Notes: a model not told the origin generated them from the sequence alone. A stretch of 64,000 bases of DNA from Synechococcus sp. PCC 6312 (GCF_000316685.1 NC_019680.1:3543407-3607406), one strand, 5' to 3'; shown: positions 30,861 to 38,710, counted from the stretch's first letter. Numbers and translations: made by a program.

Positions 30861-32771
30861 ATGACTAAATTTTATGGACTATATTCTCTTAGACATGAGC
30901 TAAATCCAGATCATCATTGGAATAGGGTAGGGGCAACCTCAGATTGGAGCCGAACTGGTCATGAAATTTGGCAAGAGGGGCCAATTTTGTTGTACAGCCA
31001 GTTACTAAGAATTAATCCCCATGATGCGTTTGAGTTACAGCCTCTTGTGACGGAAGATTTTGTCTTGGTTGGTCAAATACGGCTGGATGATCGCGATCGG
31101 CTGGGGCAGAATTTGGGTGTTAATGATGATCAGCTTTCGCAACTATCAGATAGTCAGCTTTTTCTCCAGGCCTGGCAGCATTGGGGTCAAAACTGTGTGG
31201 ATTACCTTTATGGGGACTGGGCTTGCGGAATTTGGGATCGACACCGACAATCTCTTTGGTTGGGGCGAGATGCAGGCGGAAATCGGGGCCTTTACTATTG
31301 GCATAATTCTCAGTGGCTAATTTTTTCCAATAGTTTGAAGACATTATTAGCCCACCCCTTTGTCCCAAAACAACCAAATGCCTATCAGATTGCCCGCCAA
31401 CTAGCATTAGTTATGGATCCGAGCCAAGAGGGGGCAACGGCCTATGGGGAAATTATGCGACTGCCGGTGGGAAATGCGATTCGTTGCCATGACGCAAAAG
31501 TAGAACTCTACACTTGGTGGCAGCCTGAGACTTTATCAGAGTTAGCCTGGGCCGATGATGAGGATTATTACCAGGCCTTTCGGGAACTTTATCGTACAGC
31601 TGTATCTGACCGGCTTGCCAACAGTCATGGGCCTGTGGGACTGATGTTCAGTTCTGGCTTAGATTCTGGTTCAGTTGCCTCGCTGGCGGCTCCGATCTTG
31701 AAAAAACAACATGAAACCCTGCAGGCCTATACTTCTGTGCCACAGTTTCAACCGGATGGAGCCTCGAGACTACGATTGGGAGATGAGACAGGGTTAGCCC
31801 AGGCCTGTGCGGAATATATTGGTGATATTAATTTTATTCCTGTATTCTCAACTGAGAGTAGTATTATCTATTCCCTTGAGAAGCTGTTGGAAATTCATGA
31901 TCGGCCGGGCCATGCGGCGGTGAATTACTACTGGATCCTCGACATCTTAACAATGGCTCAGGCCCAAGGAATCAAAGTGATGCTGACTGGGCAAGGTGGG
32001 AATGCCACGGTTTCCTTTAATGGGTCTGGGACTCTCTGGCCCTATGTCCTCCAGGGGAAATGGCAGCGGTTTTTAACTGAATTTTGTCAGAGTCGCGTGG
32101 GCACTTGGCAAACCCTGAAGGGACAAATTCTCCGCCCGCTCCTACAACCCTCTCTAGATGTCCTGGCTCATTTGAAAACCCTTAATCAAGCTCCCTGGGG
32201 AAATGATGCCCTCATCGGCCCAGAATTAGTGGCTGAGGTTGATCTTTGGGGACGGATGGAAGCCATGGGGTATCACCGGATATTGGGGGCATCTCAGGCA
32301 ATTTCAAGAGAACGGATTAAACAATTTCGGCTAGGGGGCCTGGGGGGCATTGGAGAAATCTGGATGGAATTGGGGGCAGCCCATCACATGGATGTCCGAG
32401 ATCCGACCCGTGATCGGCGCATAATTGAATTTTGTTGGCGAGTTCCAGATCGCATCTTTTGGGCCAAGGGATTACAACGAGGGTTAATTCGCCAGGGGAT
32501 GGCCGGGTCTTTACCGAAAATGGTTCTCCATAGCAAACGGAAAGGGCTGCAAGCGGCCGATATTGGTTATCGAGTTTGGGCCCAACGGGATGCTATTTCG
32601 ACTACTCTTGACAAACTAGAAGCACATTCACTGGCCCAGGCCTGGTTAGATATTCCAAAAATGCGCTTGACCCTAGCAGAATTAGCGACAGGAATCACCC
32701 CGGCCAAAACAGTTCGAGTGAGTTCCCTCTTACGGGGGATTGGAGTTGGCTTATTTTTAATGCGGTTCTAA
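30861..32771 (+). CDS. Lasso-peptide cyclase-like asparagine synthetase homologue (C protein)
   Basis: A 636-residue asparagine synthetase B homologue. The N-terminal half has the class II amidotransferase fold, but the N-terminus is M-T-K-F-Y-G, lacking the catalytic Cys2, so it cannot use glutamine. The synthetase half keeps the ATP PP-loop S-S-G-L-D-S (264-269), L-T-G-Q-G-G-N-A-T-V-S and the C-terminal block D-V-R-D-P-T-R-D-R-R-I-I-E-F-C, K-G-L-Q-A-A-D. This profile is that of lasso cyclases, which adenylate an Asp/Glu side chain and close an isopeptide ring. It heads an operon with a kinase, a PqqD-like protein and a precursor peptide. Confidence 0.8.
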   Translation: MTKFYGLYSLRHELNPDHHWNRVGATSDWSRTGHEIWQEGPILLYSQLLRINPHDAFELQPLVTEDFVLVGQIRLDDRDRLGQNLGVNDDQLSQLSDSQLFLQAWQHWGQNCVDYLYGDWACGIWDRHRQSLWLGRDAGGNRGLYYWHNSQWLIFSNSLKTLLAHPFVPKQPNAYQIARQLALVMDPSQEGATAYGEIMRLPVGNAIRCHDAKVELYTWWQPETLSELAWADDEDYYQAFRELYRTAVSDRLANSHGPVGLMFSSGLDSGSVASLAAPILKKQHETLQAYTSVPQFQPDGASRLRLGDETGLAQACAEYIGDINFIPVFSTESSIIYSLEKLLEIHDRPGHAAVNYYWILDILTMAQAQGIKVMLTGQGGNATVSFNGSGTLWPYVLQGKWQRFLTEFCQSRVGTWQTLKGQILRPLLQPSLDVLAHLKTLNQAPWGNDALIGPELVAEVDLWGRMEAMGYHRILGASQAISRERIKQFRLGGLGGIGEIWMELGAAHHMDVRDPTRDRRIIEFCWRVPDRIFWAKGLQRGLIRQGMAGSLPKMVLHSKRKGLQAADIGYRVWAQRDAISTTLDKLEAHSLAQAWLDIPKMRLTLAELATGITPAKTVRVSSLLRGIGVGLFLMRF

Positions 32772-32790
32772 CCGGGATATTTGATTATCA

Positions 32791-33705
32791 ATGCTAGAAG
32801 CGGAAAAGTATATCGTCCACCCGGCCTTTGGCTTAAGGTTTCGGTCTCAAATGGCTGGTTTTCCAATACGCGCAATTCCAGAGAATGGCCAAGCCTATGA
32901 TGTGGAAGTGGTTGTGGAGCCTGTCCCCCCTGCTTTGCCGCATCCGCTTTACCAGTCACAGATCTATACGGCTGCACCCGGCCAGTTACTCTGTCAAACC
33001 AGAACCATTGCCAATTTTTTTGTTGCGAATGGGTTACGGATTTCGATTGCGCCTAAGCCTACTATAGACCCCCTCAAACTCTGTAATTTGTTGTTTGGAG
33101 GCGTGACCGGGGGAGTATTAATCCAACGCGGAACATTAGCCCTGCATGGTTGTAGTATTGAAACGCCCACGGGGGTAGTGGTGGTTTGTGGTCATTCTGG
33201 GGCGGGTAAATCAACTCTGACGGCCTTGATGTTGGCCCAGGGATTCCGAATTTTGGATGACAATATTGCCGCTCTTACGCCAAAAGCAAATCAGTTTTTA
33301 GTCGCACCTGGCCTGGGATTTTTACGCCTGACTGAACCAACCCTCAAGCTGTTGAATTGGTCTCCCCCGGATCTAAGTTATCCTGTCCCAAACCAACTGA
33401 AATACATCTATCGGTTGCCCCCAACAGGTTTTTGTGATCAACTGCGACCGCTCCGGCAAATTTGGCTGTTAGATCGGGCTTGTGAGCAATTGACTACGCC
33501 GATTCTGGGCAAGGCAAAACTAGAAACCCTGCGCCAATTTACTTATATGACAGAACTAGTGCGGGGCCTGGGGCAGATTGAACATTTTTTTCCTCAGTGG
33601 ATTAACATTGCGAACTCAATTCCCATATCAATCATTGGCTATCCCAAAACCCTAACACTCCCGGCCTGGGTGGATCATCTTGCTAACCTTCTCCACAAAG
33701 CCTAA
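32791..33705 (+). CDS. HPr-kinase-like protein, candidate lasso-precursor kinase (K protein)
   Basis: A 304-residue protein whose centre matches the HPr kinase/phosphorylase C-terminal domain: Walker A G-H-S-G-A-G-K-S-T (134-142) and the following I-L-D-D-N-I-A-A-L (D156-D157). No HPr or PTS gene is present. In paeninodin-type lasso clusters a homologue phosphorylates the C-terminal serine of the precursor, and the precursor encoded three genes later here ends in Ser. It begins 19 bases after the cyclase. Function is inferred from family and context; direct kinase activity is not shown. Confidence 0.75.
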   Translation: MLEAEKYIVHPAFGLRFRSQMAGFPIRAIPENGQAYDVEVVVEPVPPALPHPLYQSQIYTAAPGQLLCQTRTIANFFVANGLRISIAPKPTIDPLKLCNLLFGGVTGGVLIQRGTLALHGCSIETPTGVVVVCGHSGAGKSTLTALMLAQGFRILDDNIAALTPKANQFLVAPGLGFLRLTEPTLKLLNWSPPDLSYPVPNQLKYIYRLPPTGFCDQLRPLRQIWLLDRACEQLTTPILGKAKLETLRQFTYMTELVRGLGQIEHFFPQWINIANSIPISIIGYPKTLTLPAWVDHLANLLHKA

Positions 33706-33784
33706 GCCGAAAAACAGATTTTTATCTCAACGACATCTGAAAGATCGGCTATGCTGTTGGCCATGGACAAACTCCACAATCGTT

Positions 33785-34081
33785 ATGACCGCTTTTACTC
33801 TTAATCCTGATACCCAACTTCAGCTCAACCCAGACATTACCTTTGGCGATGTTGACGGTGAAATTATTGCCTTAAACATTCAAACGGGCTTTTTTCTCAA
33901 TCTAAACAGTAGTGCCAGCTATATTTTTAGTCTTTTAGATAAAGCTACGCCGCGCACTCTAGGGGATATTTACAAACAAGTCCAGGCCGTTTACGATGTC
34001 CAGGATGATGTTTGCAGATCTGAAGTTAGTGGATTTATTACCCATTGTCTTGAGGTAGGATTACTTCAGCAGCTAGAATGA
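33785..34081 (+). CDS. PqqD-like leader-recognition protein (lasso B1/RRE)
   Basis: A 98-residue protein from the ATG at 33785. It has the PqqD/RRE winged-helix pattern: F-G-D-V-D-G-E-I-I-A-L-N-I-Q-T-G-F-F-L-N-L-N-S-S-A, then S-Y-I-F-S-L-L-D and a C-terminal helix F-I-T-H-C-L-E-V-G-L-L. RREs bind leader peptides and deliver them to the processing enzymes. The in-frame upstream ATG at 33680 would add 35 basic residues overlapping the kinase gene and is not preferred. The 31-base gap to the precursor gene supports the pairing. Confidence 0.8.
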   Translation: MTAFTLNPDTQLQLNPDITFGDVDGEIIALNIQTGFFLNLNSSASYIFSLLDKATPRTLGDIYKQVQAVYDVQDDVCRSEVSGFITHCLEVGLLQQLE

Positions 34082-34112
34082 TTTTTTATTTTCTATTGGA
34101 GATTTTTGAATC

Positions 34113-34274
34113 ATGAGCGACAATAGCCAAACCAACTCTACTGCCCACTCAGATCAGGCCCCTAGCCAGGCCAAGAAAGCATGGGTCACACCAGCAGTCT
34201 CTCAGTCTCCGGTTAATGAATTTACCCAAGCTAGTTTCGCTGGTTCAGGTGCTGACGGTGGCTTTTATTCTTAA
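34113..34274 (+). CDS. Putative lasso-peptide precursor, 53 residues
   Basis: A small ORF starting at an ATG preceded by a Shine-Dalgarno-like GGAG (34098-34101). It encodes 53 residues: a serine/glutamine-rich start, then K-K-A-W-V-T-P-A-V, matching the K-K-x-(Y/W)-x-x-P-x-(L/V) leader motif, then N-E-F-T-Q. The Thr is at the -2 position of the predicted cleavage site. The predicted core is ASFAGSGADGGFYS (14 residues). Its Ala1 and Asp9 would close a nine-residue ring, leaving the tail G-G-F-Y-S. Paeninodin has the same A1/D9 and terminal-Ser layout. No product has been shown, so core boundaries are inferred. Confidence 0.72.
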   Translation: MSDNSQTNSTAHSDQAPSQAKKAWVTPAVSQSPVNEFTQASFAGSGADGGFYS

Positions 34275-34301
34275 TCAGTTTTTCTTAAAATTAATCAACT
34301 T

Positions 34302-35495
34302 ATGCTCCATGTGGTGCTTGCCTGGGAGTTAGGTGCGGGTTTTGGTCATCTTACTTCGATTGCAGCCTTTGCAAGTGAGTTAATTGGCTATGGGTACTCT
34401 GTAACGGCTATTGTTCCCAAGCTCCAGCCGGCTGCCTACTCACTACTCCCACTGGCAATCAGGGTAATTGAACTGCCTGTTCCTGCTGCACCACCACGGG
34501 ATTTCCCCCTCTCAGTCAACTACACGGCGAATCTGCTGCGAAATGGGTTTTGGCATTCGGAAACAATTAAGCAAAGAGTCCAGGCCTGGCAGAACATTCT
34601 GAACAAGCTAGACCCTGATCTTTTGATTTGTGATCATGCCCCATCTGCGCTGCTCGCCAGTCGTGATGCCGCTTATCCCCGCGTGGCTATTGGACATGGG
34701 TTTACGCTACCCCCCCTCTCGGAGCCAATGCCAAGCCTCTATCCCTGGTTTTCGTTGTCCATTGAACAGTTACAGCAAGCCGACCAGATTTTCTTAGGGA
34801 TTGTCAACCCTGTTTTGATGGAAATGGGGATCCCTCCTTTAGCCAGAGTTGCGGCATTATTTGACAGGGTCGAGCGTTTTTTGTGCATAGAACCGGAATT
34901 AGATCACTATCCAATTCGCCAAGGAGAAACCTATTGGGGAGGGATTGATGCCGTGTTTTCAGTAAGGCTTGAGGAGAAAAGCTTAGAAAATATAGATTCT
35001 GGTGTTTTTATTTATATGTCAGCAAACAATCGTTTTCTGGTGCCATTGCTCAGGTTTCTCACTGCCAAAGAGATTCCCGTGCTAGCCTACCTTTCTGGAC
35101 AGGGTATTGAAACGGTTCAAACATCTTTCCCACCCCCACAGATTCAATACTTACCATCCCTGATCAACTTCAAAATAATTACGGAAAGCTGCCGGGCTGT
35201 GGTTGTTCACGGTGGTACGTTGTCAGCTTCATTTTTTCTCCGGCAGGGTATCACACTCTTAATTTGCCCCTCAGATCTAGAAAAAGCTATTTTGGGAACT
35301 CGCCTCCAAGAACGGCACTTAGCCCAGACTGCCAATTGGTTTAGCCCCCAGGGTTTATCCGATAATCAACTTGAGAATTGGTTAGGAGCAGACTTAGGAA
35401 GCAATCTTACTGAATTTTCCAAAAAACACGCCACGGCAACTCGTCCTAATCCAGTTAAATCAATTATTAATCAATGGAACCTACAAATATCATAA
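34302..35495 (+). CDS. GT-B (GT1-like) glycosyltransferase of the lasso-like operon
   Basis: A 397-residue glycosyltransferase-like protein. The N-terminus W-E-L-G-A-G-F-G-H-L-T is the acceptor-domain glycine-rich loop, and the C-terminal half has the donor-site segment V-V-V-H-G-G-T-L-S-A-S-F with H-G-G as in UGT/MGT-type enzymes. There is no signal peptide, so it is cytosolic. It starts 27 bases after the precursor gene. Sugar modification of the peptide or of a lipid carrier is possible, but the substrate is not proven. The C-terminal donor motif is weaker than in well-characterised UGTs. Confidence 0.7.
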   Translation: MLHVVLAWELGAGFGHLTSIAAFASELIGYGYSVTAIVPKLQPAAYSLLPLAIRVIELPVPAAPPRDFPLSVNYTANLLRNGFWHSETIKQRVQAWQNILNKLDPDLLICDHAPSALLASRDAAYPRVAIGHGFTLPPLSEPMPSLYPWFSLSIEQLQQADQIFLGIVNPVLMEMGIPPLARVAALFDRVERFLCIEPELDHYPIRQGETYWGGIDAVFSVRLEEKSLENIDSGVFIYMSANNRFLVPLLRFLTAKEIPVLAYLSGQGIETVQTSFPPPQIQYLPSLINFKIITESCRAVVVHGGTLSASFFLRQGITLLICPSDLEKAILGTRLQERHLAQTANWFSPQGLSDNQLENWLGADLGSNLTEFSKKHATATRPNPVKSIINQWNLQIS

Positions 35496-35522
35496 AATTT
35501 CATGTGACCTTTGGACGTTGAT

Positions 35523-36260
35523 ATGAATATGAGTCAGTTAGGCTATTGGGTCAGGTCTATCCCCGCATATTTTCCGATCGATCAAGAGTCAAACTGGGTA
35601 ATTAAGCCGTTGTATAAAGACTATCCAGGCCTGGTGGGGACACTCTCAACTTACTACTCCGTCCTAGCTCCTGGGCATATTCTCCATGCAATTCATACCC
35701 ATGATGATGATGAAATTATTGTCTTGCTTTCTGGGAAATTAGATATTCTCGCTCCTGATCATCGAATTTCCATTGGGCCGGGGAGTTTTTTTCATCATCC
35801 ACCCCATGATCCCCACACAATTGAGGCCGTTGGGTCGGAAGTTGCCTGCTTTCTGGTATTCAAGTGGAAGTCTGAACCTAAACCGCAAACATCTGAAACT
35901 GCTGAATTTTTCCTATTTGATGCCCAGGATTTAGCCCCTTGGGATCAGGAGAAAGGGTTTCAACTCCAGATACTTTGTGAAAACCAACCCCTGACTAATG
36001 GCGGGAAGCTCAAAGTTGGTTTAATTCATCTAGCACCCAATCGAGGGTATCCCCCACACAGCCATGATCATGATTTGATGCTAGTTCTACTCAATGGTGA
36101 AATGAAAGCCCTCGGGCATAACACTAATGCACCTGCTGTTATTTATTACCCTGCTGGTACCCTCCATGCTCTTGCACCTGTCAGCCCAGCCCCAATCACT
36201 ATTATTGAATTTGAATTTCATCGGGGTCGTGAAAACTCACAAACAACTGGGGGCTTCTAG
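35523..36260 (+). CDS. Double-cupin protein 1 of the lasso-like operon
   Basis: A 245-residue protein with two cupin domains (about 40-110 and 165-230). Cupin 1 keeps the metal pattern H-A-I-H-T-H-D-D-D-E and the late histidine in P-H-D-P-H-T-I-E. Cupin 2 has P-P-H-S-H-D-H-D and L-H-A-L-A-P, with the acidic ligand less canonical. Start at ATG 35523 (a second ATG lies six bases on); the TTG at 35511 is a less likely start. It is followed six bases later by a paralogue. Roles could include metal-dependent oxidation or isomerisation; none can be shown. Confidence 0.72.
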   Translation: MNMSQLGYWVRSIPAYFPIDQESNWVIKPLYKDYPGLVGTLSTYYSVLAPGHILHAIHTHDDDEIIVLLSGKLDILAPDHRISIGPGSFFHHPPHDPHTIEAVGSEVACFLVFKWKSEPKPQTSETAEFFLFDAQDLAPWDQEKGFQLQILCENQPLTNGGKLKVGLIHLAPNRGYPPHSHDHDLMLVLLNGEMKALGHNTNAPAVIYYPAGTLHALAPVSPAPITIIEFEFHRGRENSQTTGGF

Positions 36261-36266
36261 ATTCCA

Positions 36267-36983
36267 ATGAAATCAACATTCTGGATTCGGTCTCTACCCC
36301 AAAATCCTCCCATTCATCCATTGGCAAACTGGGTGGTCATGCCTTTAATCAAAGACTACAAAGGGCCGATGGGCAAAATTTCTGCATATTATTCAGCTTT
36401 GTGGCCTGGGCATCGCCCCCATGGGATTCATCAACACCCTGAAGAAGAAATGATTATTCTCCTCAATGGTGAGTTAGAGATTATTTCGCCTGATCATCGG
36501 ATTCGGATTGGGCCGGGCAGTTGCTTCCATCATCCACCGGGGGACTTACATACCATTGAGTCTGTAGGCAATGAGCCAGCTAGTTTTTTGATTTTTAAGT
36601 GGATTGAAGAATTAAAACCAAAACTCCAAAAAGATTTCACTGCCCAGTTTCACTTATTTGATCCAATAGAGTTACAGGCTTGGGATAGTCAAAAACCTCA
36701 TCAACAAAAACAAATTTGGAAAAATCAACCCCTGGCCAATGGCGGGAGTCTTACTTTCTATCGAGCTTATCATCATCCCTATACTGGCTTTCCCATCCAT
36801 TTCCATGACTATGATGTTATGGCTATTCTCCTAACTGGACAGATGGATATTTTGGGCTTTGTGGCAACTGCACCGAGCATTATTTATTACTCTGCTGGTA
36901 TTTTGCATGGTTTAGCTCCCACCAGTCCTGAAGCGATTAACTATCTGGAATTCCAGTTTCACCAGCCTCCAATCACCCGCTAA
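36267..36983 (+). CDS. Double-cupin protein 2 (tandem paralogue)
   Basis: A 238-residue paralogue of the preceding gene, with shared blocks such as W-I-R-S-L-P, G-P-M-G-K-I-S-A-Y-Y-S, R-P-H-G-I-H-Q-H-P-E-E-E and D-H-R-I-R-I-G-P-G-S. Cupin 1 keeps H-x-H and E-E-E plus D-L-H-T-I-E. Cupin 2 has P-I-H-F-H-D-Y-D and G-I-L-H-G-L-A-P. The gap of six bases to the first copy implies coupled translation. It is the last gene of the operon. The DNA from here to the IS630 relic (36984-37149) holds no gene. Confidence 0.72.
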   Translation: MKSTFWIRSLPQNPPIHPLANWVVMPLIKDYKGPMGKISAYYSALWPGHRPHGIHQHPEEEMIILLNGELEIISPDHRIRIGPGSCFHHPPGDLHTIESVGNEPASFLIFKWIEELKPKLQKDFTAQFHLFDPIELQAWDSQKPHQQKQIWKNQPLANGGSLTFYRAYHHPYTGFPIHFHDYDVMAILLTGQMDILGFVATAPSIIYYSAGILHGLAPTSPEAINYLEFQFHQPPITR

Positions 36984-37149
36984 TTTTAGCTGTTAATTAC
37001 AGCATTATCCATTTTGGGATGTAGGCAGATTGAACGATTTTTAAAATTTTTGTCTGGACTTGGTTAAATCTATAGCTATTCCAGGTAAGAGTGGGACAGA
37101 GAGGAGAGAAAAGGGATCCACTTAATGATTGTTGTTAACCCTAATGGTG

Positions 37150-37937
37150 ATGAGTTACAGCTTGGATTTACGCCAACGGGTGATTGCCTATTTCCAACAG
37201 GGTGGTCAAGTGACTCAAGCATCCAAAATTTTCCAGGTGGGTCGCTCAACGATTTATCGGTGGCTGGGACGGGATAATTTAGCCCCAACCGTGGTCACTC
37301 GTCGTCCCCGGAAACTGGACTGGTCTGCGCTGGAAGCAGATGTGAGAGCCTACCCCTAGAGCTTTGCTGCACCTCCGGTAGGCTAAGCCAACGTTCGTAG
37401 AATGACCGTTTAGTGGATCGATCCCAGCGGTTGGGCGTGGGGATTTCGACCGTTGCCTATGCCTTGAGTTAACTTAAAATCACCCATAAAAAAACAACTC
37501 CGGTATCAAGAACGGTGTCGCACTGAGCGAATTAACTACTTAAAGACGCTGCAAGGGTGGGTGAAAGAGTCCGGCAGTTCAAGTCTTGTTTACATTGATG
37601 AGACGGGATTTGACACCAATCCGACCTGTATCTATGGCTGGTCAAAACGGGGGCAGCGGTTATTTGGAGACCAACAGGGGAAACGACGGAAACGAGAGAG
37701 TCTAGTTGCTGCTCGGCGAACTCACATGAAGGATTTTATTGCACGGATGATTTTTAATGGCTTTTTGGATGCAGTGGGATTTGCCGGGTGATTGAGCCGT
37801 TATTGCTTGCCCGAGTTAGACCAACCCTCACTCCTGATTCTGGATAATGCCTCAATACACCGAAAGGCAGTGATGCTGCGCACGACCGTTAGTCTACAAG
37901 ACCTCGTTGAGACGGCCGGACATCAGGTTCTTTTTCT
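37150..37937 (+). pseudogene. IS630-family transposase relic (broken, 3' end missing)
   Basis: Fragments of one IS630 transposase lie in order. An N-terminal helix-turn-helix part starts M-S-Y-S-L-D-L-R-Q-R-V (37150-37359). Next comes an interruption at 37357 with unrelated sequence. The catalytic part has S-L-V-Y-I-D-E-T-G-F-D-T-N-P and R-R-K-R-E-S-L-V-A-A (from about 37490), broken by a TGA at 37789 where a tryptophan is expected. Beyond it comes L-P-E-L-D-Q-P-S-L-L-I-L-D-N-A, after which the gene is cut off by an IS1-like element at 37938. The usual continuation after L-F-L is absent beyond that element. Confidence 0.8.
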
Positions 37938-38710
37938 GGCGTTGCATAATGGAAAGATAAACTGTCCTAATTGTCAATCTACCCATGTGAGTAAGAACGG
38001 CCACCGTGGTGCGAAGCAAAACTATCTTTGTGTAGAATGCGGTCGCCAATTTATCGACTCCTATTCACCCAAAGGCTACCCTGATACAGTGAAAGAACAC
38101 TGCTTGAAACTCTATGTCAACGGTCTGGGATTCCGAGCCATTGAACGCTGTACTGGGGTGAATCACAACACCGTGTAGATATTTTATCTTTCGTAGATTA
38201 ATTGAGTCAAAGCGCTAGGTGAAGTCCTTCCCGATGCACCAGAATCCGCAGAAATTCCACAAATTGCTCAGGTGGATGAGCTAGAAACATTTGTTAGCTC
38301 AAAAAAACAAAATCTGGCTGTGGACATCTGTAAATGCCCATTGTGCTGGGATTATGGCTTGGGTATTGGGGCAACGAAATGCTCCAACATTTTGACAATT
38401 ATGGTTAGTCATTCGTCGTTGGCACTGTTTTCTGTATATTACAGATGACTATTGTGTCTATCCGTGCTTTATTGTAGAGCTTTGCTCGCTCGAAGATGAT
38501 GGCGACCATCTGGTCAGTAAAACTGCGATGACTTGAGTTGAAGGCGAAAACAGTCGCTTGCGTCATTATTTAGCTCGACCACACCGGAAAACCTTTTGCT
38601 ATTCCAAGTCGGTAACAGTCTTAGCTGCCTCGATAAAACTATTACTTCATTACCTCAAGTTCCGGGAAATTCCACGTTATTCTCATATCATCTCTTGACT
38701 ATGCAACGCC
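37938..38710 (+). mobile_element. IS1-family-like element, 773 bp, with intact terminal repeats
   Basis: The left terminus GGCGTTGCATA (37938-37948) and the right terminus TATGCAACGCC (38700-38710) are exact inverted repeats. The 773-base length fits the roughly 770-base IS1 family. The interior codes for an InsA-like zinc-finger N-terminus with C-P-N-C, H-V-S-K-N-G-H-R-G and C-V-E-C-G-R-Q-F-I-D, then an InsB-like catalytic half in several frames. I found no clear target duplication in the flanks, so one side may have been deleted or rearranged after insertion. Confidence 0.82.
37966..38697 (+). pseudogene. Decayed IS1-type transposase
   Basis: The first part (37966-38178) encodes C-P-N-C-Q-S-T-H-V-S-K-N-G-H-R-G and ends at a premature TAG. 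The rest has A-L-G-E-V-L-P-D-A-P, V-D-E-L-E-T-F-V-S-S-K-K, then changes frame several times. Near the end V-E-G-E-N-S-R-L-R-H-Y-L-A-R-P and C-Y-S-K-S-V appear in a frame with a stop just upstream. IS1 normally uses a programmed -1 frameshift, but the number of stops here shows loss of function. A long ORF spanning 37792-38178 is an accidental fusion with the IS630 relic, not a gene. Confidence 0.75.

Follow-up and report, generated by a model that had tools for sequence, protein, structure and literature searches.

A probable lasso-type peptide operon with a kinase, a glycosyltransferase and two bicupins in Synechococcus sp. PCC 6312

Gene content of the locus

The DNA analysed here, called the window, is a stretch of 64,000 nucleotides from the cyanobacterium Synechococcus sp. 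PCC 6312 (GCF_000316685.1, NC_019680.1:3543407-3607406). Seven intact open reading frames (ORFs) occupy positions 30861-36983 of its plus strand. They encode a lasso-type macrolactam synthetase (C), an HprK-related kinase (K), a PqqD-like recognition element (RRE, B1) for ribosomally synthesized and post-translationally modified peptides (RiPPs), a 53-residue precursor (A), a GT-B glycosyltransferase (GT) and two bicupins, Cup1 and Cup2 (Table 1). This operon very probably makes a lasso-type peptide. An earlier note, drawn from the sequence, had described seven consecutive plus-strand genes in a compact operon, and all seven are present where it placed them. The genes are indeed compact in the window, with gaps of 6-79 bp (C-K 19, K-B1 79, B1-A 31, A-GT 27, GT-Cup1 15-27, Cup1-Cup2 6). 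This is not the sole arrangement, however, because the equivalent gene set lies on two contigs in Cyanosarcina radialis HA8281-LM2, described below.

Table 1 Features of the operon, in window coordinates
Feature	Position	Strand	Basis
C, lasso-type macrolactam synthetase, asparagine-synthetase fold	30861..32771	+	family profiles, tree, 61% identical orthologue
PP-loop SSGLDS of C (pattern at residue 264)	31650..31667	+	sequence
K, HprK-related kinase, proposed to phosphorylate the C-terminal Ser of A	32791..33705	+	profiles, 59% identical orthologue
K motifs	His 33145; P-loop GHSGAGKST 33190-33216; Asp-Asp 33256-33261	+	identical or equivalent in orthologue
B1, PqqD-like RRE	33785..34081	+	PF05402; start from 98-residue orthologue
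A, 53-residue precursor	34113..34274	+	gapless 53-residue orthologue between B1 and GT
Leader of A	34113..34229	+	WVTP 34182-34193 (RRE-binding WxxP); Thr -2 at 34224-34226
Predicted core ASFAGSGADGGFYS, ring A1-D9 (D9 34254-34256), tail GGFYS	34230..34271	+	Thr -2, Asp9
GT, GT-B glycosyltransferase, GT1/GT28-like	34302..35495	+	weak Pfam matches; 56% identical orthologue adjoining A
Cup1, bicupin	35523..36260	+	PF07883; alternative TTG start 35511
Cup2, bicupin, 52% identical to Cup1	36267..36983	+	PF07883

The start of B1 was set at the ATG at 33785, which yields 98 residues, the length of the Cyanosarcina orthologue. Rfam gave no match in the window, and scans for promoters and terminators did no better than on shuffled sequence. 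Directly 3' of Cup2 (37130-38290), translations contain broken ORFs that resemble transposases of two different insertion sequences (IS), apparently nested.

The cyclase, the kinase and the recognition element

C matches PF00733 (1.6e-27) and carries a degenerate GATase domain (GATase_7). Its best NCBIfam model is NF033535, the lasso peptide isopeptide bond-forming cyclase (E 2.3e-79, 268 bits); TIGR01536 also matches, with the lower score of 146 bits. The PP-loop reads SSGLDS. Residue 2 is a threonine, so the cysteine nucleophile of the glutaminase is absent. A PDB sequence search returned weak or generic relatives at best for C, GT and Cup2.

Cyclase trees were built from 54 and 28 sequences, with two AsnB rows as outgroup. 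C pairs with its Cyanosarcina orthologue (support 100/100), then with the second cyclase of its own genome (100/99). It belongs to a set of 11 rows (100/97) comprising paeninodin-type cyclases of Paenibacillus and Priestia, among them an annotated paeninodin cyclase (L097), and alphaproteobacterial cyclases from Azospirillum, Tistrella and a Caulobacteraceae bin. Because several rows are long-branched, the finer order inside this clade is not to be relied on. Most lasso cyclases of other cyanobacteria fall outside it, as do both AsnB rows. The paeninodin-type label and the glutaminase-dead, lasso-type cyclase of the earlier note are thus borne out, C grouping with paeninodin-type and alphaproteobacterial enzymes and not with most of the cyanobacterial ones. 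Two other cyanobacterial loci encode WxxP precursors with Thr -2 and Glu9 (L052:4852-5082 and L054:7695-7832); their two cyclases form a pair beside the paeninodin-type clade, apart from most cyanobacterial lasso cyclases.

One alternative, already disfavoured, takes C for a true asparagine synthetase or amidotransferase of a surface-glycan locus and the small ORF for spurious. The AsnB fold, the neighbouring glycosyltransferase and the TIGR01536 match would fit, but the glutaminase cysteine is missing, the lasso model scores highest, the two AsnB sequences stand elsewhere in the trees and the small ORF is conserved. We consider this identity extremely improbable and rejected it on the tree placement and the missing cysteine.

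K was described in the earlier note as HPr-kinase-like. Its profile matches are weak and HprK-related (TIGR04352, 1e-8; PF07475, 0.002). Published lasso kinases use His, Lys, Asp and Asp residues to phosphorylate the precursor at its C-terminal Ser (PMC9266682), and counterparts of the His, the P-loop Lys and the Asp-Asp pair, matched by eye, are found in LHG, GHSGAGKST and LDDN of K. Ser is likewise the last residue of the precursors encoded next to K2, the second kinase of the host.

B1 matches PF05402 above the cut-off (1.4e-12), which agrees with the PqqD-like RRE of the earlier note. In the RRE tree it pairs with its Cyanosarcina counterpart at 100/99; its placement near RREs of mostly WxxP precursors is looser and poorly supported. 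The WxxP or YxxP motif of a leader binds the RRE; paeninodin-type systems typically have WxxP leaders, and their RREs prefer Trp (PMC13381572). The host genome encodes three PqqD proteins besides B1. A third PqqD protein is encoded in Cyanosarcina at G390:C16:74968-75168 (L114). The host also encodes two 142-residue PqqD/RRE proteins (C1 near 1939000 and 2272000; L084:8997-10561 and L085:9186-11775) with a leader-like C-terminal extension, [YF]xxPxLxxYxDMxxLLxLDPxxD. They adjoin HprK-like kinases, glycosyltransferases and NTP_transf_5 genes, no separate precursor being seen, and are possibly RREs fused to their own substrate.

An RRE, an HprK-like kinase and a [Y/W]xxP leader also occur in linear polyphosphorylated peptide (LPP) systems (Popov et al. 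2026). LPPs have no cyclase, a SipW-like peptidase and YxxP leaders, whereas the window has a cyclase and a WxxP leader; an LPP identity was rejected because of C.

The precursor and the orthologous system of Cyanosarcina radialis

The orthologous system was found by scanning with C paired with the second cyclase of the host. A scan with C alone gave no match, its single-sequence patterns being poorly chosen, and an alignment with the alphaproteobacterial cyclases was too divergent for searching. In Cyanosarcina, one contig (L105) carries C (61% identical) adjacent to K (59%); no match to B1, A, GT, cupin or B2, the transglutaminase-like leader peptidase, was seen in the sequenced surroundings examined. 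A second contig (L119) carries, in order, B1 (58%), a 53-residue precursor, GT (56%), one bicupin and an NTP_transf_5 nucleotidyltransferase. The lone cupin is 54% identical to Cup1 and 49% to Cup2, hence nearer to Cup1. Over the whole system identities range from 48 to 61%.

A has no family match in profile searches. Its counterpart in this second genus also has 53 residues, aligns without gaps and occupies the same place between B1 and GT, with the cupin following, so that the small ORF is conserved in a syntenic neighbourhood. Identity is very uneven along the chain: 2 of the N-terminal 20 residues, 11 of the next 19 (KKxWxTPxVSxSPxxExT..), none of the eight putative ring positions and all six residues of DGGFYS. 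Given 18 identical positions besides the start, a simple placement model yields p 9e-4 for the last six all being identical by chance, and p 6e-5 for this together with eight non-identical ring positions.

Both sequence and orthologue contain the [Y/W]xxP motif in its WxxP form, Thr -2, Asp at core position 9 and a C-terminal Ser. Thr -2 has been tied to B1-B2 processing (PMC10885120). Given this Thr, the predicted cores are ASFAGSGADGGFYS in the window and GGRNPNEVDGGFYS in Cyanosarcina, both with Asp9. The earlier note had recognized the leader motif of the 53-residue precursor and proposed a 14-residue core closed between A1 and D9. That proposal is strengthened, since the orthologous core begins with Gly1 and keeps Asp9. 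The comparison thus predicts a core of 14 residues with a ring from residue 1 to D9 and an invariant tail, GGFYS.

Such a short tail raises the question of threading. The same enzymes may make an unthreaded lariat, a branched-cyclic phospho- or glycopeptide whose tail would be a fixed handle for K, GT and the cupins and not a plug. The tail has five residues only, two of them glycines next to the isopeptide, and it is conserved while the ring is free to vary. On the other hand, C lies in the lasso cyclase clade, Phe12 and Tyr13 could act as plugs, and a 14-residue lasso, canucin, is known (PMC9266682). We regard the lariat as an unlikely outcome, though a serious one. Canucin A, a hydroxylated lasso peptide, has in common with the product proposed here the 14-residue core and tailoring of the C-terminal residue, but this tailoring is due to an Fe/2-OG hydroxylase and not to a cupin_2 bicupin, and no kinase or GT is described for it.

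Tailoring enzymes, leader peptidase and proposed pathway

GT has weak Pfam glycosyltransferase matches, and its relatives match EryCIII-like_C. Those of other cyanobacteria are partial matches at 30-36% identity, or 25-36% with plasmids included. In the stretches read, on cyanobacterial genomes and plasmids, no homologue of C, K, B1 or the cupins lies beside them, and for this reason they do not reveal the acceptor. A distant relative on the Sphingobium plasmid pTomTYG64b (L093:1-9152) adjoins genes for an RTX-type protein and for C39-peptidase/HlyD export, a context in which its target may be a secreted protein.

Each cupin of the window has two cupin domains by motif and matches PF07883, in Cup1 over two stretches. 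Domain 1 of Cup1, Cup2 and the Cyanosarcina cupin shows no variation at His-X-His-X3-Glu or at a His further on; three His and one Asp are retained in domain 2. Because these metal-site residues are invariant in the alignment, the cupins are more likely metal-dependent enzymes than mere binding proteins. The cupin alignment found no other member in 380 cyanobacterial genomes of the class, and after addition of the Cyanosarcina cupin none but Cyanosarcina itself in 391 genomes of its order, two draws that may overlap. No relatives were found on plasmids. None of the papers searched describes cupin tailoring of lasso peptides. Two Azospirillum plasmid loci (L094, L095) combine lasso-type C, K, B1 and B2 with nearby JmjC-type cupins, a 2OG-Fe(II) oxygenase and a tandem of three 'tail fiber' ORFs, which suggests that their products are hydroxylated.

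The earlier note had called the operon a kinase-bearing lasso cluster. This stands for C, K, B1 and A. It had made no mention of the missing B2, which normally belongs to the lasso core genes. PF13471, phmmer and tblastn found no B2 in the window, and a search for remnants of B2 or of the nucleotidyltransferase downstream of the operon found none. The operon alone is therefore not a complete lasso cluster; with a B2 acting in trans, it would function as such. A single PF13471 match occurs in the complete host genome (3.72 Mb, 2 contigs). It lies at C1:1090754, scores 87 bits with NF033537 against a cut-off of 33 and adjoins a 66-residue YxxP precursor. Cyanosarcina has one B2 above the cut-off, which belongs to an ordinary lasso cluster that has a C, B1, K and precursor of its own, plus one weak sub-threshold match. 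B2 adjoins neither orthologous system, so its absence from the operon is not a local accident. As both species keep one B2, this single enzyme could serve the operon in trans.

Other lasso genes of the host are scattered as well. B2 and one precursor lie at C1:1090751-1091561, and a second C with B1 at C1:2693617-2695805 (stretch 2693602-2695940). At C1:2921685-2923085, two precursors with a C-terminal Ser follow a kinase. The three loci could form one complete pathway spread over the chromosome. Such a three-place scatter is unusual compared with most cyanobacterial lasso clusters examined, in which C, B1, B2 and K lie together. Plasmid pTM1 of Tistrella mobilis (L096:8917-16677) has C-K-B1-A in the order of the window, again with no adjacent B2; none was found on pTM1 or pTM3, the two replicons searched. 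There the genes are followed by a sigma factor, a FecR-type regulator and a TonB receptor, and the precursor, WIEPEVIRLNLNEAQGAAGPFLDGATVSLPPP, has Ala in place of Thr at -2.

The pathway may instead have dropped B2 permanently, the leader being removed by a host protease or cyclization proceeding without a leader. No B2 lies beside either orthologous system, pseudomycoidin is reported, as cited in PMC9266682, to form without leader and leader peptidase, and lanthipeptide proteases can be encoded at another place in the genome (PMC8960859). However, both genomes keep one intact B2 above the cut-off, and Thr -2 is retained in both leaders; a B2-free route therefore seems to us rather unlikely. 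Much less likely still is a decaying lasso cluster, stripped of B2 and other genes by downstream IS insertions and without a product. The broken IS-like ORFs right after Cup2 (~37.1-38.3 kb) and the absence of B2 and NTP_transf_5 would agree with decay, but none of the seven frames is broken, conservation of GT, cupin and the last six precursor residues persists at about 55% protein identity, and the distant orthologous system also lacks an adjacent B2.

Our preferred reading, which we hold to be probable, is that the operon makes a kinase-bearing lasso-type RiPP through B1, K, a B2 acting in trans and C, followed by GT and bicupin steps. B1 would bind the leader through WxxP, and K would phosphorylate the C-terminal Ser, Ser14 of the core. 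The leader would then be cut after residue 39 (Thr -2/Gln -1), most likely by the sole B2 at its other chromosomal locus. C would activate the side chain of Asp9 with ATP and join it to the new N-terminus, A1, giving a nine-residue macrolactam with the tail GGFYS, which is probably threaded with Phe and Tyr as plugs. GT would add a sugar to this tail, either on phospho-Ser, as reported for pseudomycoidin, or on Tyr or Ser, and the bicupins may act on the tail or the sugar in another metal-dependent reaction. This order of steps is the most likely one in view of the K residues, the C-terminal Ser in both species and the published lasso kinases.

Several points weigh against this reading. Besides the missing B2, the operon contains no ABC transporter or exporter gene, and NTP_transf_5 (PsmN-like) is present at the Cyanosarcina locus and absent here. 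C stays below the NF033535 cut-off of 525 bits, and B1 below that of NF033536 (lasso_PqqD_Bac, 2.4e-10). For a threaded lasso, five residues of tail after a ring of nine are, in our judgement, very few. AlphaFold models were too poor for use (predicted local distance difference test score 38 for the cupin, 33 for GT), and of the two genomes that supply the conservation evidence, one was assembled from a metagenome.

Among known systems, the paeninodin-type ones (paeninodin, ThcoA, SyanA) share with the window the C clade, an HprK-like kinase, a discrete RRE, the WxxP leader, Thr -2, an Asp or Glu acceptor and the C-terminal Ser. The window operon differs from them in having no adjacent B2 or exporter, in its 14-residue core with invariant GGFYS tail, in its GT-B and bicupins and in being cyanobacterial. 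The common cyanobacterial lasso clusters (NF033535 and NF033528 types) share C, B1, K and a precursor, but their B2 is clustered, their leaders are mostly YxxP with LT before the core, and C of the window is outside most of them in the tree. With pseudomycoidin of Bacillus pseudomycoides the operon has in common a kinase and a sugar step proposed at the C-terminal Ser. There, the hexose on phospho-Ser has been linked to the nucleotidyltransferase-like PsmN (PMC9266682) and no cupins are described, whereas the window has a GT-B, with NTP_transf_5 only at the Cyanosarcina locus. Lasso clusters with a kinase are already known, as are phosphorylation at the C-terminus and phosphoglycosylation. What is new is that bicupins are present, that a kinase-bearing cluster contains a GT-B, that a tail of five residues stays fixed while the ring varies freely, and that two orthologous systems lack B2.

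More tentatively, and with considerable doubt, these systems might represent a separate lasso or lariat RiPP family. Its members would combine a hypervariable ring of eight residues with a fixed DGGFYS handle for the kinase, GT-B and bicupins, and their scattered pathway would share one trans-acting leader peptidase with other lasso precursors. The operon offers a small, fully listed gene set for asking if a lasso-type RiPP can be made with a leader peptidase that is encoded elsewhere and also serves other precursors. It also bears on the roles of metal-dependent bicupins and of GT-B, and on why kinase-bearing lasso clusters keep a C-terminal Ser. Given the pattern of fixed tail and free ring, the ring would be a natural scaffold for libraries, and phosphorylating and glycosylating enzymes could use the tail as a handle.

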